Source: an uncultured Bacilli bacterium
Lineage (GTDB): Bacteria > Bacillota_I > Bacilli_A > RF39 > UBA660
NCBI GenBank assembly: GCA_944329195.1
Contig: CALVHX010000005.1
Span: 1-47,006 of the forward strand
Direction of reading: 5' to 3'
DNA: 47,006 bases
Part shown: piece by piece, positions 3-32,962 of the stretch
Position numbering within the stretch: position 1 is the first letter of the stretch
Layout: each line of letters begins with the position of its first letter
Notes under the pieces: generated by a model
Told to the model about the DNA's origin: nothing
What the model saw: only the letters and a program-made list of their open reading frames with translations
Database searches by the model: none
Translations under genes and position numbers: made by a program

Positions 3-833
3 TTCGACATATTCATTATACTACATAACCTTGTGTTTGAAAATACCTTTACCCCCTATAATCTAGTACACAGCGAAGTAAAAAAAGATAAAATAGAAAA
101 TACTTTTTTAGAAAATGTAATAAAGAAATTTCAAACTATAAGTGGGTATCATGTGTGGCTTGGTTTTATTGATAATTATAGACCGTTTAAAAATTCATCC
201 TTTGTTTTAAAAGAAAATAACAACATTCAAATTCCATTATCTAGTATTGGTTCTGGATTTGAAATGATTTTTTCCCTTATTTATTCTTATTATTTATCCA
301 AGCAGAACAATAAAAAAATGATCATACTAATAGATGAACCAGAATTACATTTACATCCTGATGTTAAAAAGAAATTTGTAGATTTTCTATTAGAAATATC
401 AAAAGACATTCAAGTAATAATAACTACACATTCGCCAATTTTGGTTAAACAATTAATGTATAATGAATTCGTAAAAAGCATTGTTATTCATAGCGATAAA
501 ACTATATCAGATATTAGTGATTTAAAATTATCTTATCTTTCTTCCAATGAAATAAATTATATTGCATTTGGATTGGCAACAGAAGAATGCCATAATGAAC
601 TTTACGAGGAAATTAAAAGTTTAAATGGAAATACATTAAAAATTAAAGATTTTGATAATCAATTCTTTGTAGTTACCAAAAATCAGCAAAAACTATACCC
701 ATGGATGGGCAACGCTAATGAAGTTAGTATACATACTTTTATTAGGAACCAGATACATCATAGAAAAGATAATGGAGAAGCAAAATATGATGATTTAAAA
801 TCATCAATTGATTTCATGAGAAGTTGCTTATAA
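3..833 (+). CDS. AAA/OLD-like ATPase, 5'-truncated by window edge
   Basis: This is the C-terminal part of an ABC-type (AAA_21/OLD-like) ATPase. The reading frame is open to the first base of the window, so the GTG at 33 is probably internal and the Walker A half lies outside. A Walker B/D-loop stretch (ILIDEPELHLHPD, about a third of the way in) and a switch histidine (TTHSP about 30 residues later) are visible, preceded by a signature-like segment (SSIGSGFE). The C-terminus has an N-Q-I-H-H motif followed by a helix, as I recall from ATPases of restriction or abortive-infection loci. It probably belonged to a defence or mobile-element locus that continues to the left, but its partner is not visible. 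It is moderately certain that this is an ATPase; its role is unknown. Confidence 0.8.
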   Translation, partial: FDIFIILHNLVFENTFTPYNLVHSEVKKDKIENTFLENVIKKFQTISGYHVWLGFIDNYRPFKNSSFVLKENNNIQIPLSSIGSGFEMIFSLIYSYYLSKQNNKKMIILIDEPELHLHPDVKKKFVDFLLEISKDIQVIITTHSPILVKQLMYNEFVKSIVIHSDKTISDISDLKLSYLSSNEINYIAFGLATEECHNELYEEIKSLNGNTLKIKDFDNQFFVVTKNQQKLYPWMGNANEVSIHTFIRNQIHHRKDNGEAKYDDLKSSIDFMRSCL

Positions 834-1266: not shown

Positions 1267-2643
1267 TCATCTTTTTTGTATGCTCTTAACCAAAGTTCTC
1301 TTTAAAATTCTATCACCATTTTTAGGCCCAGTTCCTAAGGCAGATATCTCAACATTAGTCTCTCTTTCAAGCCAACTAAAATATTCTCTTAAATATCTAT
1401 TAAAATAATACTCTTCAAAATTACCTTTTTCACCTTTAAAATCTAAATCTAATTGTTGAAAAAAGTTTAAATACAAACTAGAAGGAGTATTAATTTGACA
1501 ATTTGTTTTTAATTTTCTTATATCTAAATCGAATATTCTTCTTTCCATTTTTGTTACTGTCGTTTGTTCAGATTGATCAAATATAGTATTAGGTGGAAAA
1601 TCACTATCTACCATTGGAAGTTCAATCAACTTTGTTTCATATTCAGATAATCCCTTAGATTTATACATTAATCGTTCTAATTCTAGAGCTTCAATTAATG
1701 TTATAGTATCTAAATTTTTTGATTTATAATTTTCTCCAAAAACTTGTTTTAAATATATTGGAGGGCAATGACTGATAATTTTCTTTAATTTTTTAATATT
1801 TAAATGACTAGGAAAACATTCAACATCACCACGACAAGGATAGCATCCATACATTGCCGCAAGATTAACTTGTGTCCACATTAATTCATCGCCACTACCA
1901 TAACCACCTGTATAGATAACGTCTCCAGATTTAGTTACATTACTAATTCTTATTGGAAAAGGTCTTATCACCATAATAGTTTGTAATAGTCTTTCGGGTG
2001 AAATTCCTGAATCTGCAAGTAATTGCGCAGTAGAAACATTTCTACTAGTAACATAAGGATAATTACCACTATGATTTAAATCTAAATCACACCCTTGAGA
2101 TCCTTCTAACATTACATATTCTAAAGGGTTATCAAGATGATTATATAATCTCTCTATCCATTCGCCATTAGAACAAACAATTGCATTTTTAAACGTCTTA
2201 AAAAATTCTAATCTATTATCACGAAGAATTTTTTCACTTAAAACAGCTCCACATCCTTTAAATGTTGAACCACTTTTAATATGTTCTTTTTCATATTGTT
2301 TATGTCTTTCATCAATTAAAGGAACCATTTCATGAACATAAATTTTTCTATCCCCTAGATATTTACTAGCTTGTTCATATTCATTGCTAAATACTTCCAT
2401 ATCAATAGCAGAACCAGGACCTATAAATAACTCTGTATTAGGATTAACTGATGATACGGGGATATTTCTAAAAACAGTAGCATTACCATTTTCATCTACA
2501 AAAGTATGACCTGCATTTGGCATACAATTAGTAACAGAAGCACCTAGATTAATGGATTTATCAGTTGCTATTTCCCCAATAACTTTAGCCTTACCACAAC
2601 TACCAGCTTCTCCATCTATTACTGATATAACATTTTTAACCAT
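1267..2643 (-). CDS. PurZ-like adenylosuccinate synthetase paralogue
   Basis: A member of the adenylosuccinate synthetase superfamily, 458 residues. The P-loop reads GSCGKAK (14-20) where PurA has GDEGKGK, so the catalytic Asp is Ser15. His46 of NAGHT is kept. Other family blocks are GSTFKGCG (125-132), EGSQG (180-184), YPYVTSRN (195-202), TTVTKMERR (361-369) and a C-terminal GTGP (437-440). The last blocks resemble the archaeal/phage PurZ branch rather than housekeeping PurA. From memory, Asp-to-Ser is the hallmark of PurZ, which joins aspartate to dGMP on the way to diaminopurine nucleotides. An extra segment of roughly 100 residues (about 262-360) makes it longer than phage PurZ. It lies 20 bases behind the Ppx-like gene, in one operon. 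The substrate ((d)GMP or IMP) is not proven. Confidence 0.85.
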   Translation of the reverse strand: MVKNVISVIDGEAGSCGKAKVIGEIATDKSINLGASVTNCMPNAGHTFVDENGNATVFRNIPVSSVNPNTELFIGPGSAIDMEVFSNEYEQASKYLGDRKIYVHEMVPLIDERHKQYEKEHIKSGSTFKGCGAVLSEKILRDNRLEFFKTFKNAIVCSNGEWIERLYNHLDNPLEYVMLEGSQGCDLDLNHSGNYPYVTSRNVSTAQLLADSGISPERLLQTIMVIRPFPIRISNVTKSGDVIYTGGYGSGDELMWTQVNLAAMYGCYPCRGDVECFPSHLNIKKLKKIISHCPPIYLKQVFGENYKSKNLDTITLIEALELERLMYKSKGLSEYETKLIELPMVDSDFPPNTIFDQSEQTTVTKMERRIFDLDIRKLKTNCQINTPSSLYLNFFQQLDLDFKGEKGNFEEYYFNRYLREYFSWLERETNVEISALGTGPKNGDRILKRTLVKSIQKR

Positions 2644-2663
2644 AATATCTCCCTAAATAAGTT

Positions 2664-3560
2664 TTACTTTAAATCATTTATAACCCCATTTATTAAATTT
2701 AAATCTGACGGAATAATCCATTTTACATTTGCTATTTTAAATAATACTAAAGGTATAATGGCACCACTTCTTGCACCATCCATCCATTTAGGATTATTAG
2801 GCATTAATTTATATAATTCATCAAGAGAAATATCATAAAATACCTTTTTAGTACCTTCAATATAATCTTCTAAACTAAGCATATATTTATGAACATTATC
2901 ATTAAACAAAGTATTATCTACTAAATTAAATCCAGTTAGCAATTCAAATCTTTCTTCACCACCAGTAAATATTGCACAATCATAATCTTTATCTAATTCA
3001 ATATTAGATAATTTTTCTAGAGCAAACTTTTCCATCTCTTCAACAGTATTACCACTATATTTGTCATTAACTTTATCAAAATTATTTAATAAATCAGCGA
3101 CGCCAATCGTTAAATTTTTTGTATCAGTTATTTTATCACCTACAAAAGTTACTAACTCAGTAGTTTTACCACCCATATTAATAATTAAGACTTTCTTGTT
3201 GTTATAATCATTTTCCATAGCTTTGGCTAAATAATAATTCTCAATACCATGACTAATAATATTAAAATGTAAATCAAATTTTTCGTTAAACAACTTAACT
3301 AAATCTTGTTTTCTTTTTTGTGTTAAATTTCTAAATATACCAGTAACGAAAATATTTGTATTATAATACTTTAAATTATATTTGGTTTTTATTTTTTCAA
3401 AGTAATCGCATAGTTCTTTTAAATTATTTTCACTAATACCTTTTCCTCTATCAAAATCATTTTTAAAATATATAGAATGTTCTTCAATAAGTTTTAATTC
3501 ATTCTCATAACAATAAACTTTTATTGTTGATGAACCAAGATCTATATAATAATTTTTCAT
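2664..3560 (-). CDS. Ppx/GppA-like ASKHA phosphatase family protein
   Basis: 298 residues from the ATG at 3560, which has AGGAG 8 bases upstream; the in-frame start 10 codons earlier lacks such a site. The ASKHA phosphate-1 motif is YIDLGSSTIKV (5-15), phosphate-2 is NMGGKTTEL (128-136) with Asn in place of the usual Asp, and the adenosine-type motif is FTGGEE (198-203). A Glu in GIEN (107) sits where Ppx/GppA keep their catalytic Glu. The length fits a bare two-lobed Ppx/GppA domain without the C-terminal HD region. Family members hydrolyse polyphosphate or pppGpp. It is the first gene of an operon with the PurZ-like enzyme, which suggests a guanine-nucleotide substrate or regulator; that link is inference. 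Confidence 0.75.
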   Translation of the reverse strand: MKNYYIDLGSSTIKVYCYENELKLIEEHSIYFKNDFDRGKGISENNLKELCDYFEKIKTKYNLKYYNTNIFVTGIFRNLTQKRKQDLVKLFNEKFDLHFNIISHGIENYYLAKAMENDYNNKKVLIINMGGKTTELVTFVGDKITDTKNLTIGVADLLNNFDKVNDKYSGNTVEEMEKFALEKLSNIELDKDYDCAIFTGGEERFELLTGFNLVDNTLFNDNVHKYMLSLEDYIEGTKKVFYDISLDELYKLMPNNPKWMDGARSGAIIPLVLFKIANVKWIIPSDLNLINGVINDLK

Positions 3561-3611
3561 ATTATCAACTCCTATACAATATTTTATCATATAATTCTGC
3601 TATTTTAAAGG

Positions 3612-3633: not shown

Positions 3634-3680
3634 ATTTTCAGTAAAAAAGAGTAAAGATTTTTCGCAAAAAATTTGATAAA

Positions 3681-3712
3681 TTACTACATAATAAAAAGAT
3701 GGTATGTAGTAA
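3681..3712 (+). promoter_or_regulatory. Inverted repeat over the transposase start codon
   Basis: TTACTACATA (3681-3690) and TATGTAGTAA (3703-3712) form a perfect 10-bp stem with a 12-base loop. Its right arm ends on the A of the ATG at 3712. It could sequester the start of the transposase in read-through mRNA, a usual way insertion sequences limit expression, or serve as an operator. Confidence 0.5.
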
Positions 3713-4995
3713 TGAATCGAAAAACAAGAAGAGAATTGAAAAAAGACAAAAATTTGATAAAAGAATTATATTCTATAATAGTAAAATATCTGTCGAAATT
3801 ATTAACAATGTTTAATAATTTAACTGATACTAGGCATCAAAGTTATGTAACATATTCAATGAAAACAATTTATGTTACCAGACTATTTCCACTTTTATGT
3901 GGCTTAACAACTATGACAGACATTTCAACAGATACATTTAATACAGATACTTGTATAAAAAATATATCTAAAATATGTAATCAAAATTTAAGCGAACTTC
4001 CTTATTGGGAAACTATCCAAGATGTATTTATGAATATTAAAACTAGTGAACTAAGAGACATTCAAAAGTATATTGTTAAAACTCTAATCCGTTCTAAAAT
4101 GTTTGATAGATATAAATATGATGGTTATTTTCAAATTGTTGTTGATGGAACCGGTCTTTCTAATCATAGTTATAATTTAAACGATAATTGCATTAAAAAG
4201 AAATATAAAGATGGAAAAATTGCTTATTGTAAATATGTTTTAGAATGTAAATTAATCGTCGGTAATATAGTTATTAGTTTAGATAGTGAATGGATAGAAA
4301 ATGCAGAAAACTTAAATGAAAATCAAAAACAAGATTGTGAAACTAAAGTTTTTGAAAGAATGGCAAAAAGAATTAAAAAGAAATATCCTAAGCAAAAATT
4401 CATTATTACTGCCGATGCTTTATATTGTACTTCTCCAATGATTTGTATTTGTAAAGAAAACCATTGGAAATATATATTTAATCTAAATGATAGATTACGA
4501 ACCGTTTTCAAGGGTTTTAATGATTATATTGAGTGTTTTAACGATTGTTCTATTGAAAACTATTTTTTAGATAACAATTATAAGTATAAAAATCATAAAT
4601 TTAATATAATAAAATTCACTGAGAGCAAAAAGAAAAAAACGACCAATTTTCATTATATTACCAACTTAAAAGTAACTAACAATAATATCAAAAAAATTGT
4701 ATGTTTAGGTAGAAATCGCTGGAAAATTGAAAATCAAGGTTTTTTATAATCAAAAGCATCGCACTTTTGATATTACTCATTTAAATTCTAGAAACGATAC
4801 GGCTTTAAAAAATCATTATTTCTTTATTCAATTTGCTCATACAATTAGACAACTGCTAGAAAAGGTAATAAATCAATTAAATTGTTAAATTTGAAAATAA
4901 AAGAAGTAAGTTACATTTTACTAAACAACCTTACTTCAACAATCTCAGATCTTAATAATTTAGAAACTAACTTTCAATTAAGATTTGATGAATAA
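3712..4995 (+). pseudogene. IS transposase (IS4/ISLre-type DDE) with two frameshifts
   Basis: The first frame (ATG 3712) gives 345 residues with DDE-transposase hallmarks: VVDGTGLS, ITADALY and RNRWKIENQGF near its end. At a run of six T's (about 4740) the frame breaks and hits TAA at 4747. Homology-like sequence continues in the next frame (YNQKHRTFDITHLNSRND... to the TAA at 4886). It then returns to the original frame (LKIKEVSYILLNNLTS... NFQLRFDE) and stops at 4993-4995. A single T gain at 4740 and a single-base change around 4870-4885 would restore a product of about 427 residues. I could not find convincing terminal inverted repeats, so the element borders are open. Slippage at T6 is an alternative for the first break but does not explain the second. 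Confidence 0.7.
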
Positions 4996-5294: not shown

Positions 5295-6269
5295 CTATAA
5301 AAATTCTGGAATCTCAGATAATATTTTATACTCACTTACTCCAATTGGTTTATTGATATCCTTTAATGCTAATTCAGCAGTAACTCTCTTCTTATCTTTA
5401 CAAAGTAATATACCAAATGTTGGATTATCCTTTTCATCTTTAATACATTTGTCAACCGCACTTAAATAAAAGTTTAGTTTACCAGCATATTCAGGTTTAA
5501 ACACTGTTGTTTTAAGTTCAATAACTACATAACTTCTAACTTTTAGATTATAGAATAATAAATCTAAATAATAGTCTTCATTTTCAATTTCTAAATGATA
5601 TTGTCTACCAACAAAAGCAAAACCATTCCCTAACTCCAATAATAACTTGGTTATATTTGCTGTTAATTCTCTTTCGATATCAAGTTCTTTTAAATCTTTA
5701 TCGGTAGTTATAAAATCAAATATATATGGACTTTTTAATAATTCTTTTGCTTGTTCATTATTAGGAGAAGGCAATGTTTCATCAAAATTAGTTGTTTTAT
5801 TTTTTAATAGTGCCTGTCTTTCATATAATTTACTTGCTATTTGATGAACAATTACAGGTCTTGTCCAACCGTTTTGAAGAGATTCCTTAATATACCAGCT
5901 TCTTTGTTCTTTATCTTTTACTTGATCCATTATAGTTGTTATAGAAGACCAAGGTAATTTTGCAACATGATGTTGCAAAAATTCATCGTTATCAAATTCA
6001 GTAGCAAATTTTTGCATATATCTTAAGTTTCTTGCTGACATACCTTTTAATGCAGGAAACTCCATTTTTAAATCTTTTGCTAAAGTATCTATAAAAGATG
6101 AACCCCATTTATTGTTTTCAATTAGTTTTAAACCAATATTGTAATACATTAATACTAAATCTTTATTAGCATTTTCTACTATCCTATTTCTAGTAGTAAT
6201 TAAAGTTTTCTTAATGTCATTTAATACTTCAAAATATTTATCATTATTTTCTAACTTAACATCCTCCAT
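5295..6269 (-). CDS. YhcG-type PDDEXK nuclease (DUF1016), amber-truncated
   Basis: A DUF1016/YhcG protein of 324 residues. The N-terminal helical domain carries GSSFIDTLAKDLKMEFP and SARNLRYMQKF. The C-terminal PDDEXK fold has FAFVGRQYHLEIENEDYYLDLLFYN and then the E-x-K of VVIELKTTVFKPEYAGKLNFYL. The family is thought to be a nuclease and is common in defence islands and near restriction systems. The ORF ends at TAG (5295-5297), but 18 more in-frame codons (NTLPSIEDIEKRLEEDSE) follow to a TAA at 5238-5240. They match the usual end of the family, so one nonsense change has clipped the tail. The catalytic core is complete and the protein may still work. Confidence 0.85.
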   Translation of the reverse strand: MEDVKLENNDKYFEVLNDIKKTLITTRNRIVENANKDLVLMYYNIGLKLIENNKWGSSFIDTLAKDLKMEFPALKGMSARNLRYMQKFATEFDNDEFLQHHVAKLPWSSITTIMDQVKDKEQRSWYIKESLQNGWTRPVIVHQIASKLYERQALLKNKTTNFDETLPSPNNEQAKELLKSPYIFDFITTDKDLKELDIERELTANITKLLLELGNGFAFVGRQYHLEIENEDYYLDLLFYNLKVRSYVVIELKTTVFKPEYAGKLNFYLSAVDKCIKDEKDNPTFGILLCKDKKRVTAELALKDINKPIGVSEYKILSEIPEFL

Positions 6270-6509: not shown

Positions 6510-6914
6510 CTATCTCCTCTTTAATCCAACCTTCTTCTTAAACTCTATTACCTCATCTATACTACATACATCACTATCAAATAACATAGGAATAATATAA
6601 TCATCTTCTTTATATAAAATATTATATCCTAACTCTTTTAAAACAATATTAAGAAATATCTTTAAAGTCCTACTATTCCCATCATAAAAAGGCTGGTAAT
6701 ACAATAATTTTCCTACTAAATTAAGTAAATTTAATAATATCTTATCTATATCTTGTGTTGTCTTTAATACCTCATATAAATTTCTTAATAACCCATCAAA
6801 ATACTTTAAATCTTCCTCAGAATTAAGTCTAATATTGTTTTTATCATTAATAATACTACTATTTATCTTTACTAACTTACTAAAATAAGGATATTTTTTA
6901 TATATTTCTTCCAT
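6510..6914 (-). CDS. Small Fic/Doc-fold protein lacking the catalytic His
   Basis: 134 residues with a recognisable Fic core: QPFYDGNSR (74-82) followed by TLKIFLNIVLKELGYNI. Active Fic AMP-transferases have H-P-F-x-D/E-G-N-G/K-R; here the His is Gln74 and the second Gly is Ser81. Without the His base AMP transfer should be lost, so this is a degenerate, regulatory or differently acting member. Its ATG directly follows the TAG of the upstream 115-residue gene with no gap, so the two are translationally coupled as in toxin-antitoxin pairs. The short length fits a minimal Fic domain. The neighbourhood of disrupted genes also allows simple decay. Confidence 0.7.
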   Translation of the reverse strand: MEEIYKKYPYFSKLVKINSSIINDKNNIRLNSEEDLKYFDGLLRNLYEVLKTTQDIDKILLNLLNLVGKLLYYQPFYDGNSRTLKIFLNIVLKELGYNILYKEDDYIIPMLFDSDVCSIDEVIEFKKKVGLKRR

Positions 6915-7322: not shown

Positions 7323-7742
7323 TTATCTAGTACCAGTGTGTCCAAAGCCACCGCCCCTGTTAATTCCTAATGTCTTAATAACACCTTTGTCGACTTGTTC
7401 AAATTTTATTTTCTCATATCTACTTAAAACAATTTGTGCTATTCTATCACCTTTTTGAATAATGTATATTCCATTTTTATTTCCCTTTTCACCAATTGTA
7501 TAAGTTTGTAAATCATCACAATTATTTGATGTATTGGAAATTATTATACCTATTTCATCACGATATCCACTATCTATTGTTCCAGGTGAGTTAGCTATTC
7601 GTAAAGGTGTATTTAAGGACAATCCACTTCTTGGTCTTACCTGAAGTTCATAATCTTCAGGAATAGCCATTTTTAATCCAGTTGGAATAATTTTTGTTTC
7701 ATTTGGGAAAATTGTAATATCTTCTGCTGCTCTAACATCCAT
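7323..7742 (-). CDS. dut: dUTPase, N-terminus interrupted by an in-frame TAA
   Basis: Trimeric dUTP diphosphatase: dUTP to dUMP and PPi, keeping uracil out of DNA and supplying dTMP synthesis. All five motifs are present: GMDVRAA, RPRSGL, GTIDSGYRDE, KGDRIAQIVL and RGGGFGHTG. The ORF from ATG 7742 (139 residues) starts inside motif 1. In the same frame the coding sequence runs back to an ATG at 7874 with a strong GGAGG, reading MTNEEKREIL, then TAA (7842-7844), then LLKKELIGGKKVYVEIC... up to motif 1. The family's first beta-strand is therefore encoded but separated from its start by one nonsense codon. Either the gene is freshly inactivated, or translation restarts, or the base is an assembly error. 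It lies 6 bases behind the radical SAM-dCMP deaminase gene, in one operon producing dUMP. Confidence 0.85.
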   Translation of the reverse strand: MDVRAAEDITIFPNETKIIPTGLKMAIPEDYELQVRPRSGLSLNTPLRIANSPGTIDSGYRDEIGIIISNTSNNCDDLQTYTIGEKGNKNGIYIIQKGDRIAQIVLSRYEKIKFEQVDKGVIKTLGINRGGGFGHTGTR

Positions 7743-7880
7743 ACCAGCGTCACCTTGATTTGCATATTTTGGTAGGTCAACACCATCTCTACAAATTTCA
7801 ACATATACTTTTTTACCCCCAATTAATTCTTTCTTTAATAATTATAATATTTCTCTTTTTTCTTCATTCGTCATAATAAT

Positions 7881-9362
7881 TTAAACCTCCAAACTTAATT
7901 TTAGTACTTTTTGTTTTTCGGGTGCTAGTCTACGATATGTGACACCACAAATATCAAACAGTCTTTTTGATGCAATTGTTTCTTTGGTTCCAGCATATTT
8001 ATCTGATAAGTAAATTACTTCTTTGATACCTGCTTGAATTATTTCTTTAGCGCATTCATTACATGGAAATAAGTCAACATATATTTTGGAATTTTCTAAT
8101 TCCTTACGACTTCCCCGATAATTTAAAATAGCATTTCTCTCAGCGTGAACGACATACATATATTTTGTATCTAATGGATTTCCATCTCTTTGCCATGGAA
8201 AACATTCATCTAAATAACCGTTTGGTGCTCCGTTGTAACCAATTGATAAAATGCGATTGTCAGCACTTACAATACATGCCCCCACCTGAGTATTAGGATC
8301 TTTACTGCGCATAGCGGATAACTTTGCTATAGCCATAAAATATTCATCCCAACTTAAATTATCATTGCGTTGTTGTTCTAAAACTCGATGTTTTAGAAAC
8401 CATTGTTTAAATCCTTTTCTTTCTTCTTCTGTTTCAATTTCTTCATGGTAATAATGTTTAGTAAACTCACCGCAAGAACTTCCTATTTCTCTTCCAGGTG
8501 GTGAATATGTTTTGATTCTAAGTCCTGGTAATTGTTTAGAAATTTCACTAACCCATATTTCCTCTTTGCCACTTATCTTTAAATCATTAATAGGATTAAA
8601 TCTAATGAATTTAATTGGTATATTATATTTTGATAATATCTGGCATACTTTATCTAATTCTTCTTGACTGTCATTAACACCCTTTATTAACGTATAATGA
8701 ATTTCTACAGGATCATTGGTTCTATGAAGTTCAATGTATTCACGCATTATTTCGTCATTTGCTTGAACACATTTTCGATATTTGATTAAGTACGCTAAAG
8801 CTTCTTCAATATTTACTTTTGTACTTGGTATTAAATCAAATCTTTTATTATCAATTGGGGTATGCATAGAAAAATGAACCTTTAGGGGAATGTTTAATCT
8901 ATCCACTAATGTAGTAAGGTCTAAGATATTTTTGTTAGGCATCATGGTAGCAAGTGCATAACCAATATGTTCATAACCTAACTTCTCTCTTAGAACTGTT
9001 TCCATGTTGTAAACATCTTCTATTAACTTAAGATTTAGTAATGGTTCTCCTACTCCCATGAATGATATGAGTAATCTCCTTTTATTAGTTCTTCGCACGC
9101 CATTTTTAGTTAGTGTTTGAATTAAGCAAGTGATAAAATCATTTGCTTTTATTGGCATCATAGCTTTATTTAACCCTTTATTTGTTAGATGACACATTTT
9201 ACAACCAAGATTACAAAAATGATGGGTTGGTACACATACAACATCAATTTCTTCTTTATTGGCTAATAATGTCATTTCGATTATTTGTTTGTTTCCTACA
9301 TCAAAAACTGATTTTAAGGAATTATCTGAAAAATCTTTAAAAACTCCAATATTTTTAATCAT
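7881..9362 (-). CDS. RlmN-like radical SAM enzyme fused to dCMP deaminase
   Basis: 493 residues from ATG 9362, preceded by GGAGGG; the longer ORF adds 16 hydrophobic residues without a binding site. Residues 1-310 are RlmN/Cfr-like. They carry a C-x3-C-x2-C cluster (Cys50, 54, 57), Cys43 seven residues before it, FMGVGEPLLN (101-110), HFSMH (163-167) and CGEF with Cys297. Cys43 and Cys297 match the two catalytic cysteines of RlmN, so the methyl-transfer machinery looks intact. Residues about 330-493 are a dCMP/cytidine deaminase with zinc ligands in HAE (406-408) and PCNEC (433-437). The deaminase step feeds dUMP to the dUTPase/thymidylate pathway, and the dUTPase gene follows directly. The radical SAM substrate (RNA or a nucleotide) is unknown. 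Confidence 0.88.
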   Translation of the reverse strand: MIKNIGVFKDFSDNSLKSVFDVGNKQIIEMTLLANKEEIDVVCVPTHHFCNLGCKMCHLTNKGLNKAMMPIKANDFITCLIQTLTKNGVRRTNKRRLLISFMGVGEPLLNLKLIEDVYNMETVLREKLGYEHIGYALATMMPNKNILDLTTLVDRLNIPLKVHFSMHTPIDNKRFDLIPSTKVNIEEALAYLIKYRKCVQANDEIMREYIELHRTNDPVEIHYTLIKGVNDSQEELDKVCQILSKYNIPIKFIRFNPINDLKISGKEEIWVSEISKQLPGLRIKTYSPPGREIGSSCGEFTKHYYHEEIETEEERKGFKQWFLKHRVLEQQRNDNLSWDEYFMAIAKLSAMRSKDPNTQVGACIVSADNRILSIGYNGAPNGYLDECFPWQRDGNPLDTKYMYVVHAERNAILNYRGSRKELENSKIYVDLFPCNECAKEIIQAGIKEVIYLSDKYAGTKETIASKRLFDICGVTYRRLAPEKQKVLKLSLEV

Positions 9363-9381
9363 ATTGTTCCCTCCTATAACA

Positions 9382-9410
9382 ATTATAAAAAAAATAAATA
9401 TTTTTGGCAA
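9382..9410 (-). promoter_or_regulatory. Promoter of the radical SAM-dCMP deaminase operon
   Basis: TTGCCA (9405-9410), 17 bases, TATAAT (9382-9387), read on the minus strand. It ends 20 bases before the ATG at 9362, leaving a short leader that just holds the GGAGGG site. This separates the operon from the upstream LysR gene. Confidence 0.7.
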
Positions 9411-9471
9411 ATACTTATTTTTTATTACTTTTATAATTTTTAATTATTACTATAACTTAAAATAATAATTG

Positions 9472-10386
9472 CTATAACTCTAAATTATAATCTATATAAT
9501 CTTCAATAAATCTTTTAGGAGCTGTTGTTAGAAAATATGGATCATATACGATGTTTATATCGACAGTAGGTAGTTTTTCTTTGATATTCAACACTTCAAT
9601 TTCATTACTTTTTATTTCATTTTCAACTAAATTATATATAACATAACCAATACCTAAATCTTTTTTAACAGCCGAAATAATCATTTCACTGGTATGGATA
9701 TTTATAACATTTTGAATATTTATATTATTGTCTTTTAGGATATTATCTAAATCATTACGATTAGCAGTACCTGATATTGGTAAGATTAGAGGATATTTTA
9801 CTAGATCTTTGAGAGAGGTTATATCACTAGTTTTTAGAATTCTGGTATCTTTTTTTACAATAAAGCAATATTGGACCGCTTTTAACTTAGTTACTTTCAT
9901 TCCTTCATCTAATCTAACATTAATTGGAGATGTATCAATTACAAAATCAACTTTGTGAGTATCTAATAAATTTATTAAATTAGATGTAGAGCCAGTGATG
10001 ATTGTAATTTCAATGTTTGGAAATTTTTGGTGAAAGTCCATTATTTTATCAAACAAGAAAAATGATCCGATATTGGATGGCATACCAATAGATAATTTTC
10101 CTCTTTCTAAATTTTCTGTTTCTAGCATACTTCTCTCTGCAATAATTAAATTGTTGAAAGATTTTTCAACAAAATATAATAATTCTCTACCTTTATCTGT
10201 TAATTCAACGCCACTTAAATTTCGATAAAATAATTGCGTATCTAATTCCTCTTCTAATTTCTTAATTGATTTACTGATTGCTGGCTGGGAAGTATAACAG
10301 CTTTTAGCAGCTTGTGAGATACTTCCACACTTGGCTACATCATAAAATGTTTTATATAAATTTAAGTTGATGTTACTTTTATACAT
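9472..10386 (-). CDS. LysR-family transcriptional regulator
   Basis: 304 residues, the usual LysR length. An N-terminal winged helix-turn-helix (about 5-65) reads YKTFYDVAKCGSISQAAKSC, QPAISKSIKKLEEEL and LFYRNLSGVELTDKGREL. It is followed by a periplasmic-binding-like effector domain (about 90-300). An extended -10 (TGTTATAAT) lies about 25-30 bases upstream and GGAGG precedes the ATG. LysR proteins often control a neighbouring gene. The nearest is the radical SAM-dCMP deaminase on the same strand downstream, which has its own promoter. The target and co-inducer cannot be read from the sequence. Confidence 0.92.
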   Translation of the reverse strand: MYKSNINLNLYKTFYDVAKCGSISQAAKSCYTSQPAISKSIKKLEEELDTQLFYRNLSGVELTDKGRELLYFVEKSFNNLIIAERSMLETENLERGKLSIGMPSNIGSFFLFDKIMDFHQKFPNIEITIITGSTSNLINLLDTHKVDFVIDTSPINVRLDEGMKVTKLKAVQYCFIVKKDTRILKTSDITSLKDLVKYPLILPISGTANRNDLDNILKDNNINIQNVINIHTSEMIISAVKKDLGIGYVIYNLVENEIKSNEIEVLNIKEKLPTVDINIVYDPYFLTTAPKRFIEDYIDYNLEL

Positions 10387-10635
10387 AATAATACCTCCAA
10401 ATTAGCTACTATTATAACACTTTTTAGTTATTTTTTTATTTTTTCTTTTATATTTTTCTTAATTTTTATATTTTATTTTATAACGAATACTACTAAAAAG
10501 ATATATAGAGGCAATTGCGAATATAAGTCGCCCATTAGATGTAAAATTGTAAAAGATCAAAAAACTGTTTTAATTATACTACTAAAAACATAATTTTGAA
10601 TAATCAATATCTAATTATTTTAACAGTTAAATCTT

Positions 10636-10670
10636 AAATAAGACAATATAAAAAATACATTGTCTTATTT
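10636..10670 (-). terminator. Perfect 12-bp hairpin after the UDG-like gene
   Basis: AAATAAGACAAT (10636-10647) pairs perfectly with ATTGTCTTATTT (10659-10670) around an 11-base loop, 3 bases after the stop codon of the UDG-like gene. The tail is only partly T-rich. It marks the end of the repair gene group. The remaining 10387-10635 holds only LysR promoter elements and AT-rich DNA. Confidence 0.6.
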
Positions 10671-10672
10671 AA

Positions 10673-11350
10673 TCATATAGAAAAAGATTTATCTGTTTTT
10701 CTTAGTTCGTGTTCCATTATCCATTTTATATCTTCAATTGATTTATCAATATTAAATCTTCCATTGCCAACAGGATAGTAGACAGAATAAAATTTATATT
10801 CTTTGCCATTTATTTCTTTTAGAAAACATTTTTTTCTTACCTGAGATACGGATATTTTTTGATTTAAAACGATAGAGCTTACTTGATTGCCAAAAAGGAT
10901 TATTACTTTGGGGTTAATAATAGTAAATTCTTTGTTTAATAAGTTTAAATATTCTTTGTATACAGAATCTGGTAATTCTCTAGCATCTACTTGGGTACAT
11001 TTACCTAGATTGGTAATGAAATATTTATGCCTTGTCACATCTTCATAGACTTCCCTAGCAAATTCTATAGTCCATTCACTTCCTTTAAGAGACTTTATTT
11101 TATTATATATGTCTTTGTCTAATAAATCTAAGTTAATGAATAAATCCCAAATATTCTTAGTACCAATCCAAGGCGCTTTTAAGCCTTTCCATGTTTTGGA
11201 TGAAGCAATATTTCTTCCGGTTGGGTTCATGAAAACAAAGCAAATATCAGGATGGTCTTCACAACCTCCATTGTAGATAGAATCTAATTCTTTAGCACCA
11301 TATTTCTTTTGTAGTTTATCATATTCTTTAGTCAATGATTTAATATTCAT
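10673..11350 (-). CDS. Uracil-DNA glycosylase superfamily protein
   Basis: 225 residues from ATG 11350, which has AGGAG 10 bases upstream; the TTG three codons earlier is too close to that site. The UDG-fold signature is seen as FVFMNPTG (38-45, in place of the GxxPG water-activating loop), HKYFITNLGKC (108-118), INPKVIILFGN (145-155) and VYYPVGNGRFN (190-200, where families 4-6 have the HPS loop). The motifs are divergent, so the base specificity is unsure. It is 55 bases behind an endonuclease-IV-like gene. The pair would do the first two steps of base excision repair: base removal, then cleavage at the abasic site. A role in uracil repair fits the nearby dUTPase. Confidence 0.7.
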   Translation of the reverse strand: MNIKSLTKEYDKLQKKYGAKELDSIYNGGCEDHPDICFVFMNPTGRNIASSKTWKGLKAPWIGTKNIWDLFINLDLLDKDIYNKIKSLKGSEWTIEFAREVYEDVTRHKYFITNLGKCTQVDARELPDSVYKEYLNLLNKEFTIINPKVIILFGNQVSSIVLNQKISVSQVRKKCFLKEINGKEYKFYSVYYPVGNGRFNIDKSIEDIKWIMEHELRKTDKSFSI

Positions 11351-11405
11351 AATAATCAAGCTCCTAATTTTAGTTTACATTTTTTCACTTCAATATATAA
11401 CCAAA

Positions 11406-12308
11406 TCACTTTTCATCAAAATATAAATTTTTCATCAACTTAGCACCTATATCCTGAGTATTATGAGCCTCACATATAGTTATAGGAGTAAGCTTCATTT
11501 CTTTAATTGCCAATATATAGTCTTGCGCCCTCGGCATATACTCATCATCTGTTTCAAATAAAGATAACTGATTAATTTCCTTTTTATCACCAAATGCTTT
11601 ATGAACTTTTTCACCTTTATCAGAATAGTCTACAGGATAAACATGAAAGTGTGTTTCTTCTAAAATATCTCTACCCAATTCCCTTTCTATCTTTTTCAAA
11701 ACATCAACTATTTTATTTTTTGATGACATACTTCCCAATTCTCTAGCATGCAAATGCGCTAAATCGATACAAGGTCTAGCATAATCCACATTTTTACAAA
11801 TTTGAATTATTTCATCCAAACTTCCAATCTGATTTACTTTCCCTCCAATTTCAGGATAAATCTTTATATTTTGAGTATCTATATCTTTTTTTATAGAATT
11901 TAAAGCATCAATAAGTTTTTTTAATCCTAACTTTCTTTCTTTTTCGGTCTTCCCATATCCCGCTCCAGGATGAAAAATAATTCTACTAACGCCAAGTAAT
12001 TCAGCTAGTTCAAAAGCTTTTTTAATTTCTAATTTTGATCTTTCTACTACTTCTTCTTTTTGAGAAGCAAGACTTATATAATACGGAGCATGCATCGTAA
12101 TCAATATCCCATGCTCTTCTGCAAGGCTACGATAAAGTACTGCTTGCTCTTTTTTCATTCTAATTCCATAAGTACATTGAAGCTCAATACAATCTAAATC
12201 AATTTCTTTTAACCAAGCAAAAATATTCTCTCTTTTTTTACCATACTTACTATCAAAAAAATTAATCGGAAACCCAGCAACACCAAATTTAATTTGCTTC
12301 CCCATCAT
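11406..12308 (-). CDS. Endonuclease IV-like/xylose-isomerase TIM barrel
   Basis: 300 residues in the AP endonuclease 2/xylose isomerase-like TIM-barrel superfamily. Metal-ligand-type residues are spread at strand ends as in Nfo: MHAPYY, IIFHPGAGYG, IYPEIGG, CIDLAHLHARE, ETHFHVYPVDY and TICEAHN. GGAG lies 6 bases before the ATG pair at 12308/12305. It overlaps the preceding FAD-oxidoreductase gene by 20 bases and is followed by the UDG-like gene. It may cut abasic sites or isomerise a sugar; the residues are compatible with a three-metal Nfo site but do not prove it. The repair reading is favoured because of its neighbour. Confidence 0.75.
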   Translation of the reverse strand: MMGKQIKFGVAGFPINFFDSKYGKKRENIFAWLKEIDLDCIELQCTYGIRMKKEQAVLYRSLAEEHGILITMHAPYYISLASQKEEVVERSKLEIKKAFELAELLGVSRIIFHPGAGYGKTEKERKLGLKKLIDALNSIKKDIDTQNIKIYPEIGGKVNQIGSLDEIIQICKNVDYARPCIDLAHLHARELGSMSSKNKIVDVLKKIERELGRDILEETHFHVYPVDYSDKGEKVHKAFGDKKEINQLSLFETDDEYMPRAQDYILAIKEMKLTPITICEAHNTQDIGAKLMKNLYFDEK

Positions 12309-13659
12309 AACTACTCCTTAATATATCATCACTAATAATTTTACCAGAAATCATAGCTTGCATTAACCCACGAAAATATCCGCTGGCATCTCCACCAATA
12401 TATAATCCTTTTATATTCGTTTCAAAATTACTATTAAGTTTATATTTATTAGCACCAAACTCAAATGAAGGTGCATAAATTATATTTTTTTCATTTGCAA
12501 AACCAGGTAAAACTTCATCTATGTCGATTATCATTTCTTTAATATATCTCAAGGTATCTGCTGGTAAATATTTATTAATATTACCACAAACATAGTCTTT
12601 CATTGTACAGTACTCATCATCAATAAAGCAATCCTCAGTATCATTGAGAAAGGACTTCATATTTTGAACAATGGGCTTCCTATTCTTATTAGAATCAAAA
12701 ATCATTTTATTAAAATCATCTATTTTTTTTACATCACTCTTTCTATGATGTATGGCTATATTTACACTTTTTGTATTATTATCTTCCGGTCCTAACACAC
12801 ATCCATCTAAAGAAGATAACTTTCTAGCATTAACATCAAAGACACATTTTCTAACAATACCTTTGTAATTTTGACAAAAAGTTCTAATTTCGTTGGCATC
12901 ATCTATTCTTCTTTTAAGTTTAATATCATTAAAAACATCATTAATTTTTTCAAATACTTTGCTTGGCATTTCAATTCTCACACCAATTTCACCAACTAAA
13001 TTATCACTTTCGTATTTTATTCCAATGTTATCAGCGAGTCTATTCAAAAACATACCGCCATATCTACCAGTTGCTAAGATAACTCTATGAGCACTGATCA
13101 TTTTTCTATCAGTATATACTTTAAAATCATTTTCATGTTTAATATCTAGTACTTTTTCACCCCATATGAATGAAACATTATTTTTGTCAAGTTTCTTCCT
13201 AATATTCAGTCCAATCTTCTGCATAATATTTTTATCTACTTTTTGAGCATTATAGTATTTAATATCTATATTATGAAGATTAAAATCATCTACTATATTA
13301 TTAATTAATACACTATCAACGTCTTCACGCAATGGCTTACCAAAATCTACCAACAAATCTTCAATTTCGTTATAATATTTACGAATATCTTCTTTAGACT
13401 TAAATTTTAATAATCCCGATCCTGCTGGATAAAAGCAAGCCTTAGTTCCATCTAAAAATTGACAACCACCATATCCAGAAATAATATTACATGGATTGCA
13501 ATTTTCTTTACACTTTAAGCCAAGATCCAAATTACAGATTCTTTGTTCAAAATTTCTTCCGGCCTCTATTACACAAACTTTAAAGTCTTTACTTAACTGT
13601 AACGCACTAATTAATCCGCATGGGCCAGCACCAACTATACAAATATCACAGCTTATCAT
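12289..13659 (-). CDS. FAD-dependent dehydrogenase (COG2509-like)
   Basis: 456 residues. An N-terminal Rossmann dinucleotide-binding motif, VGAGPCGLISALQL (9-22), is followed by the Glu that binds ribose. A Cys cluster (CNLDLGLKC, CNPC) comes just after it, then a second Rossmann-like strand (VILATGRYGG). The C-terminal FAD end motif is GLYIGGDASGYFRGLMQA. The order and length fit the uncharacterised FAD-dependent dehydrogenase family. It is the first gene of a three-gene unit with the TIM-barrel and UDG-like genes. The substrate is unknown and a link to DNA repair is not evident. Confidence 0.82.
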   Translation of the reverse strand: MISCDICIVGAGPCGLISALQLSKDFKVCVIEAGRNFEQRICNLDLGLKCKENCNPCNIISGYGGCQFLDGTKACFYPAGSGLLKFKSKEDIRKYYNEIEDLLVDFGKPLREDVDSVLINNIVDDFNLHNIDIKYYNAQKVDKNIMQKIGLNIRKKLDKNNVSFIWGEKVLDIKHENDFKVYTDRKMISAHRVILATGRYGGMFLNRLADNIGIKYESDNLVGEIGVRIEMPSKVFEKINDVFNDIKLKRRIDDANEIRTFCQNYKGIVRKCVFDVNARKLSSLDGCVLGPEDNNTKSVNIAIHHRKSDVKKIDDFNKMIFDSNKNRKPIVQNMKSFLNDTEDCFIDDEYCTMKDYVCGNINKYLPADTLRYIKEMIIDIDEVLPGFANEKNIIYAPSFEFGANKYKLNSNFETNIKGLYIGGDASGYFRGLMQAMISGKIISDDILRSSYDGEAN

Positions 13660-30250: not shown

Positions 30251-32962
30251 TCATTCGTTTTTCTTTACTAACAAATCAGATAATTTTGTAATATTTCCCG
30301 CACCAAGAGTAAGAATCAAATCATCTTTTTGTACATACTGTTCCAAATAAATCTTAATCTTTTCATAATCACTAATATGAAAAGCCTCTTTTCCATATTT
30401 TTTAATTTCTCTAATTATATCTCCTACTTTAACACCATAACTATTAACTTCACGTGCTGCATATATATCGGTAATTATAATATGATCAAACTTACTTAAA
30501 ACCCTAGCAAAATCTTTTTTATGTCTATACACTCTAGAGTAAGTATGTGGTTCAAAAATAACCCATGATTTATTATACTTTTTACCATGAATCGCTTCAC
30601 AGGTTGCCTCTATTTCCGTAGGATGATGTCCATAATCATCAAATACCTTTGCCAATTTAAAATTACCCTTGTACTCAAGCCGCCTAGAAGCACCATTATA
30701 TTTTTTTAAACCCTCTACGATCATATCAAAACTAATACCATAAATATCTGCCATTGCAATTGCAGCCATAGCATTAGAAACATTATGCCTTCCAGGAACA
30801 GATAACTTTACATTTCCAAGTTCTTTACCAAATTTAATTACTGTAAAAAGGCCATAACCATCATCATCATAAGAAATATCTTTAGCCATATAGTCAGATT
30901 CATTTTCTACTCCATATGTAAAAACTTTTGCTTTAGTATGACTAGCAAGTTCATTAGAATTATCATCATCATTATTGATAACTAAATAACCATCATTAGG
31001 TAAATGACTTACATATCTATTAAATGATTTTTTAATATTACTCAAATTCTTAAAATAATCCAAATGATCATTATCTATATTCAAAACAATCGCAGCTTTT
31101 TGTTTAAAAGACAAAAAACTATCCGAATATTCACAAGCTTCCACAATAAAAGTATCACTACTTCCAATTCTATAATTACCACCAATATTACTTAAAATAC
31201 TCCCAACCTGTATAGTAGGATCATAACTACTTTCCAAAAAGATACAAGAAAGCATTGAAGTAGTACTAGTTTTACCATGAGTACCAGCAACACCTATCGT
31301 ATTTGAATAAAGTTTAGTAATCTCTCCTAAATATTTTCCCCTTTCCATCATAGGAATACTCCTACTTTTGGCCTCTATCATTTCTTCATTATCCTCTTTA
31401 ATAGCGGCAGTATAAACAATAAAATCAATGTCATCAGTAATATTCTCTTTTCTTTGAGGAATAAAAACCTTAATACCCTTCTTCTCTAACTTTTTAGTAA
31501 TATCAGTAGAGGCTCTATCACTACCACATACATTATATCCCATGCTCAATAGTATCTCGGCAATACCACTCATACTTATACCACCAATACCCATCATATA
31601 AATTTTATTATAATTACCAAGAACTTTTTTCTTACCGCACTTTAATATTAAACTTTTAAAAAGTTCCCCTCTTGTTTCAAAATTTGGAAATTGATCCCAA
31701 GAAGCGCAAGCAGGACTTAAGAGAATTATATCACCACTGACAGATTTACTATAAGCAAGATATGTAGCCTCTTCTAAAGTATCGACAGTATAACACTCAA
31801 CATCAAATCTTCTACAAAAATCATTAATTCTATTTTTTGTTTCACCATAACATATTATCAATTTTATATGTTTTAAATAATCACTCAATTCATCAAATAA
31901 GTGTCCTCTATCTAAACCACCCATAATTAATATAGTTGGTTCAGTAAAAGAAGAAAGAGCAATCTTAGTTGACTCTACATTAGTACTTTTAGAATCATTA
32001 TACACTTTTCTACCATTAATATTACCAACAAATTCAAGCCTGTGTTCCACACCACTAAAGCCTTTGATAACTTCTTTAATAATATCATCAGCCACCCCAT
32101 ACACCTTTGTAGCAAGAATAGCACACATAATATTTTCATAATTATGTTTACCTCTTAAAATCACATCTTTTGTATCAATAAATTTGACACCATCATAGTA
32201 AATAAAACCATTACTATAATAACATTTAGCGCCATCTATACAAGAAAAATAATACTTAGTACTAGCAATATCACCAGTCAATTCTATTTCCTCTTCATTG
32301 TCCTTATTAATAATAGCAACATCTCTATCAGTATGGTTCATAAAAATTTTCTTCTTAACCCTTTTATATTTCTCGTGTCCATCATGAAAATCAGTATGGC
32401 ATTCATAAATATTAGTCATAACCGAAACATTAGTTTTAAAATCATACATATCACATAACTGATGATCTGATATTTCCATAACCAAATAATCATCTTCTCT
32501 AATATCATTTACAAAATGACATAGAGGAGTCCCTATATTACCCGCTAGAAAAACTCTATCACCAAATGCTCTTCTCATTATTTGATATATAATACTAGTA
32601 GTGGTAGTCTTACCATTCGAACCAGTAATTCCGATAATATTTACGCTTTTATCTAAATAATGATAGGCAACTTCAACCTCATTTATAACAGGAATATTAA
32701 GCTCTTTAGCTTTTAAAACACAAGGATGGTTGTACTTAATCCCAGGATTTTTAACCATTATATCATAACTAGAATCCAATATATCTTCAGGATTATCGCA
32801 GACTTTGAAAGTAACACCTAAAGATTCTAACTCAATAACATTTTTTTTATCTTGCTCTTTCATATCAGTAATAAAAACATTATTATCTTTAGCCAAAATC
32901 TTTGCTACTTCATAACCACTTCTGGCCATTCCCAATATAAAAAAATTTTTATTTTTATACAT
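30251..32962 (-). CDS. MurD-MurC fusion (peptidoglycan precursor ligases)
   Basis: 903 residues carrying two complete Mur ligases in one frame. Residues 1 to about 440 are MurD: N-terminal ILGMARSGYEVA (9-20), ATP loop GITGSNGKTTTT (111-122), MEISDHQL (162-169), HRLEFVG (307-313), DSKSTN (323-328) and MGGLDRG (347-353). Residues about 453-903 are MurC: IYMMGIGGISMSGIAEIL (454-471), AGTHGKTSTTSM (559-570), EACEYSDSFL, NIDNDHLDYF, RRLEYKG and DDYGHHPTE. MurC adds L-Ala and MurD adds D-Glu to UDP-N-acetylmuramic acid, so the protein joins two consecutive cytoplasmic steps, with the later enzyme at the N-terminus. The linker is only about 12 residues and Lys-rich. No frameshift or spurious join is visible. 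Confidence 0.92.
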   Translation of the reverse strand: MYKNKNFFILGMARSGYEVAKILAKDNNVFITDMKEQDKKNVIELESLGVTFKVCDNPEDILDSSYDIMVKNPGIKYNHPCVLKAKELNIPVINEVEVAYHYLDKSVNIIGITGSNGKTTTTSIIYQIMRRAFGDRVFLAGNIGTPLCHFVNDIREDDYLVMEISDHQLCDMYDFKTNVSVMTNIYECHTDFHDGHEKYKRVKKKIFMNHTDRDVAIINKDNEEEIELTGDIASTKYYFSCIDGAKCYYSNGFIYYDGVKFIDTKDVILRGKHNYENIMCAILATKVYGVADDIIKEVIKGFSGVEHRLEFVGNINGRKVYNDSKSTNVESTKIALSSFTEPTILIMGGLDRGHLFDELSDYLKHIKLIICYGETKNRINDFCRRFDVECYTVDTLEEATYLAYSKSVSGDIILLSPACASWDQFPNFETRGELFKSLILKCGKKKVLGNYNKIYMMGIGGISMSGIAEILLSMGYNVCGSDRASTDITKKLEKKGIKVFIPQRKENITDDIDFIVYTAAIKEDNEEMIEAKSRSIPMMERGKYLGEITKLYSNTIGVAGTHGKTSTTSMLSCIFLESSYDPTIQVGSILSNIGGNYRIGSSDTFIVEACEYSDSFLSFKQKAAIVLNIDNDHLDYFKNLSNIKKSFNRYVSHLPNDGYLVINNDDDNSNELASHTKAKVFTYGVENESDYMAKDISYDDDGYGLFTVIKFGKELGNVKLSVPGRHNVSNAMAAIAMADIYGISFDMIVEGLKKYNGASRRLEYKGNFKLAKVFDDYGHHPTEIEATCEAIHGKKYNKSWVIFEPHTYSRVYRHKKDFARVLSKFDHIIITDIYAAREVNSYGVKVGDIIREIKKYGKEAFHISDYEKIKIYLEQYVQKDDLILTLGAGNITKLSDLLVKKNE

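Follow-up and report, generated by a model that had tools for sequence, protein, structure and literature searches.

A chromosomal PurZ-like enzyme of RF39-like Bacilli and its Ppx/GppA-like partner: a possible nucleotide-conflict or signalling cassette

Described PurZ enzymes and a chromosomal relative

The synthesis of AMP and that of dZMP both require the removal of fumarate from a succinyl intermediate, and in Z phages MazZ supplies (d)GMP from guanine nucleotides. PurZ has been described as a phage enzyme, its published tree consisting of 147 phage and four archaeal sequences, with no prokaryotic phylum sampled by more than two sequences (PMC12884076). In Z phages the conversion of the succinyl intermediate is performed by host enzymes, and PurZ0, a relative found among Gordonia, Arthrobacter and Microbacterium phages, is accompanied in the phage genomes by DutZ/DmtZ (PMC12884076). 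For the PurZ of cyanophage S-2L, the individual residues that form the dGMP pocket and the aspartate loop, and those in contact with ATP, have been described (PMC8342488).

The window examined here (47,006 nt) is the entire contig C5 of an uncultured Bacilli bacterium with a genome of 1.12 Mb that is 94% complete. A gene for a PurZ-like enzyme was identified on it, with a gene for a Ppx/GppA-like protein directly upstream (Table 1). A plus-strand reading of positions 1267-2643 was rejected due to the presence of stops throughout, the ORF running on the minus strand from 2643 down to 1267. As the contig also holds rpoB and rpoC, the PurZ-like gene is chromosomal, in agreement with a preliminary description of this DNA, which had stated that the gene is not among phage genes. 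Its assignment as a prophage gene was rejected on the same grounds, along with the lack of a close copy of the gene, and of its Ppx-like partner, among viral contigs.

Comparison to PurZ/DgsS of Vibrio phage phiVC8 and cyanophage S-2L (6tnh, 6fm1, 7odx) showed that the replacement of Asp13 by Ser, the fold, the pocket for dGMP, Asp and ATP, the TTVTK..RR loop and the LNF motif are shared. The enzyme of the window differs in being encoded on a bacterial chromosome, in possessing a helical insert of approximately 95 residues, in having a host that lacks PurB and in its association with a Ppx-like partner rather than with DatZ/MazZ, with identity to PurZ/DgsS being approximately 32% across half of the length. 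PurZ0 (7vf6) is likewise a Ser-type relative of adenylosuccinate synthetase, but it forms a separate branch and possesses a GSEAKG motif. Bacterial PurA and archaeal PurA (PH0438, 5k7x/2d7u) share the overall fold and most of the motifs with the enzyme; however, they retain the catalytic Asp, lie on the other side of the tree and work with PurB.

Table 1. Coordinates of the PurZ-like and Ppx-like genes, their sequence features and UDG-like copies at other loci (positions in the window unless a locus is named).
Feature	Position	Strand	Remarks
PurZ-like (succino-2-amino-(d)adenylate synthetase-like) gene	1267..2643	(-)	458 aa, Asp13-to-Ser type
GSCGK P-loop, residues 14-18, Ser15 replacing PurA Asp13	2590..2604	(-)	invariant in 45 homologues
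Aspartate-binding loop TTVTKMERR, residues 361-369	1537..1563	(-)	corresponds to S-2L T273-R281 by alignment
Helical insert, approximately residues 262-356, between PIRIS strand and aspartate loop	1576..1860	(-)	
Intergenic gap of 20 nt between Ppx-like and PurZ-like genes	2644..2663	(-)	ribosome-binding site AGGGAG
Ppx/GppA-like ASKHA-fold partner	2664..3560	(-)	298 aa from Met at 3560; mechanical ORF to 3590
UDG-like copy near PurZ-like gene, locus L046	4281-4970		directly downstream
UDG-like copy near PurZ-like gene, locus L071	304-966		
UDG-like copy near PurZ-like gene, locus L072	1780-2445		

Clade, fold and active-site residues

A maximum-likelihood tree of 70 rows, combining PurA, archaeal PurA, PurZ and PurZ0 as had been proposed in the preliminary description, placed the enzyme in the Ser-type clade and apart from PurA. 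All Bacilli members formed one branch (100/100) within this clade (100/99), which contains phage PurZ, PurZ0 and plasmid relatives, with bacterial PurA and archaeal PH0438 lying outside. The sister of the Bacilli branch was found to consist of IMG/VR phage PurZ with a GSCGKGK motif (L118, L127, L128) and a second copy in the bacterial genome G077 (L095/L115). These share the GSC motif and the PIRIS strand with the Bacilli enzymes but are without the insert, and the phage members lie in an early-gene context with neighbours that were read by eye as ThyX-, nuclease- and helicase-like. Since some of the phage rows are long-branched, the branching order within the phage part of the tree is less certain than the split from PurA. 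The AF2 model of the enzyme (pLDDT 90) gave 6tnh, the PurZ of phiVC8 with dGMP, Asp and AMPPCP, as its top PDB fold match by E-value (7.7e-24), with archaeal PurA a close second. The best family matches were those to NCBIfam PurZ (3e-51) and PHROG 1211 (1e-49), the curated cut-off of the former not being reached (174 against 300 bits). The enzyme genuinely belongs to the Ser-type (PurZ) clade.

Other Ser-type genes were observed beyond the Bacilli family. The second copy of G077 (L115 2363-3883, contig C6) is insert-free and related to phage PurZ, and it is situated 12 nt behind a NUDIX gene. Bacillus phage vB_BpsS-140 encodes a PurZ-like protein with a GSEGKGK motif (L102 7962-9083) that branches off basally to the PurZ/GSC group, and neither DatZ nor MazZ is annotated within 8 kb of it. 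Plasmid-borne enzymes were identified on Sinorhizobium medicae pMl5 (L112 7986-10048), on A. fabrum plasmid pAt1D132a (L113 5437-7720) and at L114. The two rhizobial plasmid genes resemble that of the window in being cell-encoded and of the Ser type (GSEGKG), in lying at accessory loci and in having a partner gene directly after them; however, they form separate branches, and their partners differ, that of S. medicae giving a weak dCTP-deaminase-like match and probably possessing a membrane helix, and that of A. fabrum containing DUF7002. The A. fabrum enzyme further differs by an N-terminal kinase-like P-loop region, which was also observed in a Ser-type enzyme of Methylobacterium. Other cell-encoded Ser-type enzymes are likewise found next to nucleotide-related genes, and, though the cases are few, they point to more than one recruitment of PurZ-like enzymes in bacteria.

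A homologue scan of 84,980 species genomes identified 60 loci, almost all of them in Bacilli/RF39-like gut metagenome genomes. In an alignment of 45 homologues that derive from gut genomes of RF39-like Bacilli, with identities of 49-86%, residues S15, N43, G45, H46, T47, G125-T127, Q183, R232, T361, V363, T364, R368, R369, N393, F394 and G439 were invariant, with GSCGK, N.GHT, GST, the Q of EG.QG, T.VT...RR and NF being constant across all members. The residue at the position of PurA Asp13 was found to be Ser in all phage, plasmid and IMG/VR relatives examined and Asp in PurA. These results bear out the preliminary description, which had noted a GSCGKAK motif with Ser15 in place of the catalytic Asp of PurA, and the other motifs that it had listed as kept were all located: NAGHT (43-47), GSTFKGCG (125-132), EGSQG (180-184), TTVTKMERR (361-369) and GTGP (437-440).

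The dGMP pocket of S-2L PurZ is formed by G22/S23/N49/A50/G130/S131/T132/R146/Q190/R240 (PMC8342488), for which alignment identified the counterparts G14/S15/N43/A44/G125/S126/T127/R141/Q183/R232 in the window protein. T199, T361-T364 and R368 are also kept relative to S-2L PurZ, and N393/F394 are the counterparts of its ATP residues N305/F306. S-2L V241, for which a clash with the 2'-OH of a ribose has been proposed (PMC8342488), is replaced by I233, an Ile that is invariant in the Bacilli family. At the position of S-2L P336, most family members possess Ala and the window protein Pro. The LNFF.Q motif agrees with the residues that contact ATP in PurZ, which suggests that the phosphate donor is an adenine rather than a guanine nucleotide. 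The insert, which the preliminary description had given as roughly 100 residues (262-360), was recovered with nearly the same extent and is well predicted and helical in the AF2 model; searches of Pfam and the PDB returned no match to it and no origin was found. Neither the members of a short sub-branch (L075-L078) nor phage PurZ possess it.

The Ppx/GppA-like gene and the spread of the pair

The pairing with a Ppx/GppA-like gene, also noted in the preliminary description, was supported both by domain content and by gene order. The partner protein matched PF02541 with 31.4 bits, over the cut-off of 27, and its moderate model (pLDDT 80) matched 1t6c with Foldseek (E 5e-17, TM approximately 0.5). 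It probably starts at Met11 at position 3560 rather than at 3590, given that almost all relatives start there or near and that this start has a good ribosome-binding site. In common with Ppx/GppA phosphatases (1t6c, 6pc0), to which it was aligned, it possesses the ASKHA fold, GG motifs and the residues E117 and E145 (numbered on the 308-aa ORF), but it is a single unit, it reached only 48 bits against the TIGR03706 cut-off of 307, and Asn138 takes the place of the Asp in the DxGGGSTE motif, as in 26 of 26 partner sequences. Glu/Asp/Glu is presumably the catalytic set of these phosphatases, the Asp being metal-binding in family members, and this full set is thus not present in the partner, with the two Glu kept. 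Due to this replacement, the protein may be a hydrolase of altered function or one that binds nucleotides, perhaps without any hydrolase activity.

The Ppx-like gene was found directly upstream of the PurZ-like gene in 29 loci, with a spacing of 14-24 nt. In seven further carriers it is present elsewhere, at 480 bits or more (G044, G074, G075, G079, G080, G083, G084), and in 17 of 50 carriers it is absent or represented distantly only. A survey of 395 genomes of the class identified the PurZ-like gene in seven, all of a single family, and in none of ten congeners. Ppx-like matches of over 500 bits were confined to three carriers, with no close homologue in any non-carrier of this survey, the single non-carrier match being a distant relative at 108 bits. 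Nor was the partner found among 2.9 million viral contigs. A distant Ppx-like protein in G017 adjoins FtsK/EssC-like genes and was rejected as a member of the cassette.

At loci without the Ppx-like gene, the upstream neighbours are mostly unrelated housekeeping genes, and an exchange of upstream effectors in the manner of CBASS was rejected on this basis. The exceptions are NUDIX genes upstream in L055 (21 nt) and of the second copy in G077, and an HD_4/HD/AAA protein in L038. Few of the genes flanking the PurZ-like loci are common to different loci, and this, combined with the sporadic distribution, is typical of an accessory cassette that undergoes horizontal exchange. A DDE transposase gene, probably truncated, lies directly divergent from the Ppx-like gene (window 3673-4749, plus strand), with none observed in the other loci. 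When the window was compared with seven relatives, dN/dS was 0.10-0.22 for the PurZ-like and 0.07-0.12 for the Ppx-like protein, from which it follows that both are under purifying selection.

Missing lyases and the possible role of the pair

PurB (TIGR00928) was not found in the genome of the window or in G013, and among 50 carriers it scored above the cut-off in one only. The superfamily of fumarase, PurB and argininosuccinate lyase (PF00206) was missing in 38 of 40 genomes tested, including that of the window, with a match in all 14 control genomes. Since both are missing, neither AMP nor Z-DNA would be made by the known route. Canonical PurA was identified in five of the 50 carriers, where it exists alongside the PurZ-like enzyme (G072, G079, G086-G088). 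Separately, canonical PurA with the GDEGKGK motif was observed with no detected PurB in G016, G079, G086, G087 and G088 (L005, L094, L090, L092 and L091, respectively). PF00206 was also missing in those orphan-PurA genomes in which it was searched, and nothing obvious as a lyase was found beside the orphan PurA genes in the neighbourhoods examined (G016, G079 and G086). As these five genomes keep an orphan PurA, a lyase of another kind is possible in this lineage, and this is the main caveat to the reading preferred below.

Such a lyase is what would be needed if the enzyme were a diverged PurA that still converts IMP to adenylosuccinate on the way to AMP, the step of PurB being taken over by a lyase that has escaped recognition. 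The preliminary description had named two findings that would together favour an ordinary PurA, namely the enzyme being the only PurA of its genome and its grouping with ordinary PurA; the former was found, as it is the sole PF00709 protein of its genome, but the latter was not, given its placement in the Ser-type clade. Besides this placement, the Ser at the catalytic position in all members, the absence of the gene from congeners and from approximately 98% of class genomes, and its coexistence with canonical PurA in the five genomes named above make a diverged PurA improbable, and the view that it is simply the usual PurA in a reduced genome was rejected on account of the tree and the lack of the lyase. 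The use of the enzyme as a maker of dZMP for DNA that contains Z wholly or in part, as in Z phages, would fit its clade and its conserved dGMP-pocket residues, yet a PurB-type lyase for the conversion of dSMP to dZMP is missing. Furthermore, no MazZ/DUF550, DatZ or DpoZ was found beside the PurZ-like gene at the locus, and a genome search for DatZ, conducted without a positive control, gave no match. This role is accordingly most improbable, and the Z-type DNA modification envisaged in the preliminary description, at least by the known pathway, is unlikely, with adenylosuccinate lyase and its whole superfamily absent from the genome and from nearly all carriers.

A further alternative is that the gene is a relic of a captured phage purZ that has been retained by drift. 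Its nearest relatives outside the family are indeed phage PurZ, and broken or fragmentary copies exist (L054, L079, L080, L081), but drift is contradicted by the strong purifying selection on both genes across distant members, by numerous intact copies with 49-90% identity, and by the chromosomal rpoB/rpoC context and a conserved partner that is missing from viral contigs; there is very little chance that this is the case.

The reading that is preferred here, with a probability of about one half for it as a whole, is that of a chromosomal bacterial branch of PurZ whose end product would be a succinylated 2-amino-(deoxy)adenylate, made within an accessory cassette for nucleotide conflict or signalling. 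The enzyme would join aspartate to a guanine mononucleotide (dGMP, possibly GMP) with the expenditure of ATP, resulting in N6-succino-2-amino-(deoxy)adenylate, a chemistry that is probable in view of the conserved pocket. That this nucleotide is the end product, rather than an intermediate toward AMP or Z, is fairly likely, since the carriers are without adenylosuccinate lyase. The Ppx/GppA-like protein would work with the enzyme, either supplying (d)GMP by stripping phosphates off guanine nucleotides or binding or hydrolysing the product of the enzyme. The pair would alter the guanine (deoxy)nucleotide pool or yield a nucleotide that serves as a signal or an antimetabolite, with conflict with phages being the most plausible setting. 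A role in conflict or signalling that is exercised jointly with the Ppx-like protein is put forward tentatively. Somewhat more doubtful is a two-gene immune system that acts by signalling or by altering the pool, in which the PurZ product would be final and the Ppx/GppA-fold protein would supply the substrate, sense the product or serve as effector. Signalling or defence was the better half of the guess made in the preliminary description, and the idea survives in the reading preferred here.

A specific form of this reading is a defence by depletion, in which (d)GMP from the phosphatase-like partner would be trapped as a dead-end succinylated nucleotide in the course of infection, starving the replicating phage of dGTP. 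A product that is a dead end for want of a lyase, the patchy accessory distribution and the pairing with a NUDIX hydrolase instead (L055 at 21 nt, the second copy of G077 at 12 nt) are all consistent with it, and defence through the nucleotide pool is established, for example in Clover, which combines a dGTPase with a nucleotide-signal partner (PMC12265719). Like the pair described here, Clover (CloA dGTPase and CloB) is a two-gene system of a nucleotide phosphohydrolase and a nucleotide-making enzyme (PMC12265719), but the families are unrelated and the likeness is one of analogy only. However, stoichiometric trapping would consume one ATP and one Asp for each nucleotide and may lack the strength required, the catalysis of the partner may have changed, and no direct link to defence was found with PADLOC or among the neighbours, so that depletion in this form is rather unlikely.

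With PADLOC, neither the PurZ-like nor the Ppx-like protein was matched. The neighbours of the loci are lightly scattered with matches to defence models (AbiA, DUF1016, AAA/AriA-like), these counts being without a background rate, and in the literature no defence link of adenylosuccinate synthetase and nothing relevant on RF39 was found. A defence role is therefore no more than plausible. In the window, the cassette is flanked by genes for a DUF1016/YhcG PDDEXK nuclease (PADLOC PDC-S02; 5295-6269, minus strand), a small Doc/Fic-like protein (6510-6914, minus strand) and a 5'-cut OLD/AriA-like AAA protein (3-833, plus strand).

Other genes of the window were also observed. A row on the minus strand at 7323-13659 encodes a dUTPase-like protein, a fusion of RlmN-like radical-SAM and dCMP-deaminase (509 aa), a LysR regulator, a family-4-like UDG, an Nfo-like TIM barrel and an FAD oxidoreductase, and is possibly a separate cluster for nucleotide or DNA-base modification or defence. 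Copies with 66-75% identity to its UDG-like gene (10673-11359, minus strand) are situated near PurZ-like genes in three other loci (Table 1). The UDG-like gene was present in 32 of 50 carriers and in 9 of 35 non-carriers of the same family (Fisher p approximately 0.001, with kinship uncorrected and the three loci having been chosen for their UDG-like gene). A protein of 903 aa with a MurD-like N-terminal part and full Mur-ligase domains, apparently two fused Mur ligases, is encoded at 30251-32962 (minus strand).

The existence of a populous bacterial branch of PurZ in genomes that are free of the lyase suggests that succinylation of the dGMP type is used for something besides Z-DNA. With a defined enzyme, a partner and the prediction that the succinylated nucleotide accumulates, this is open to direct testing.
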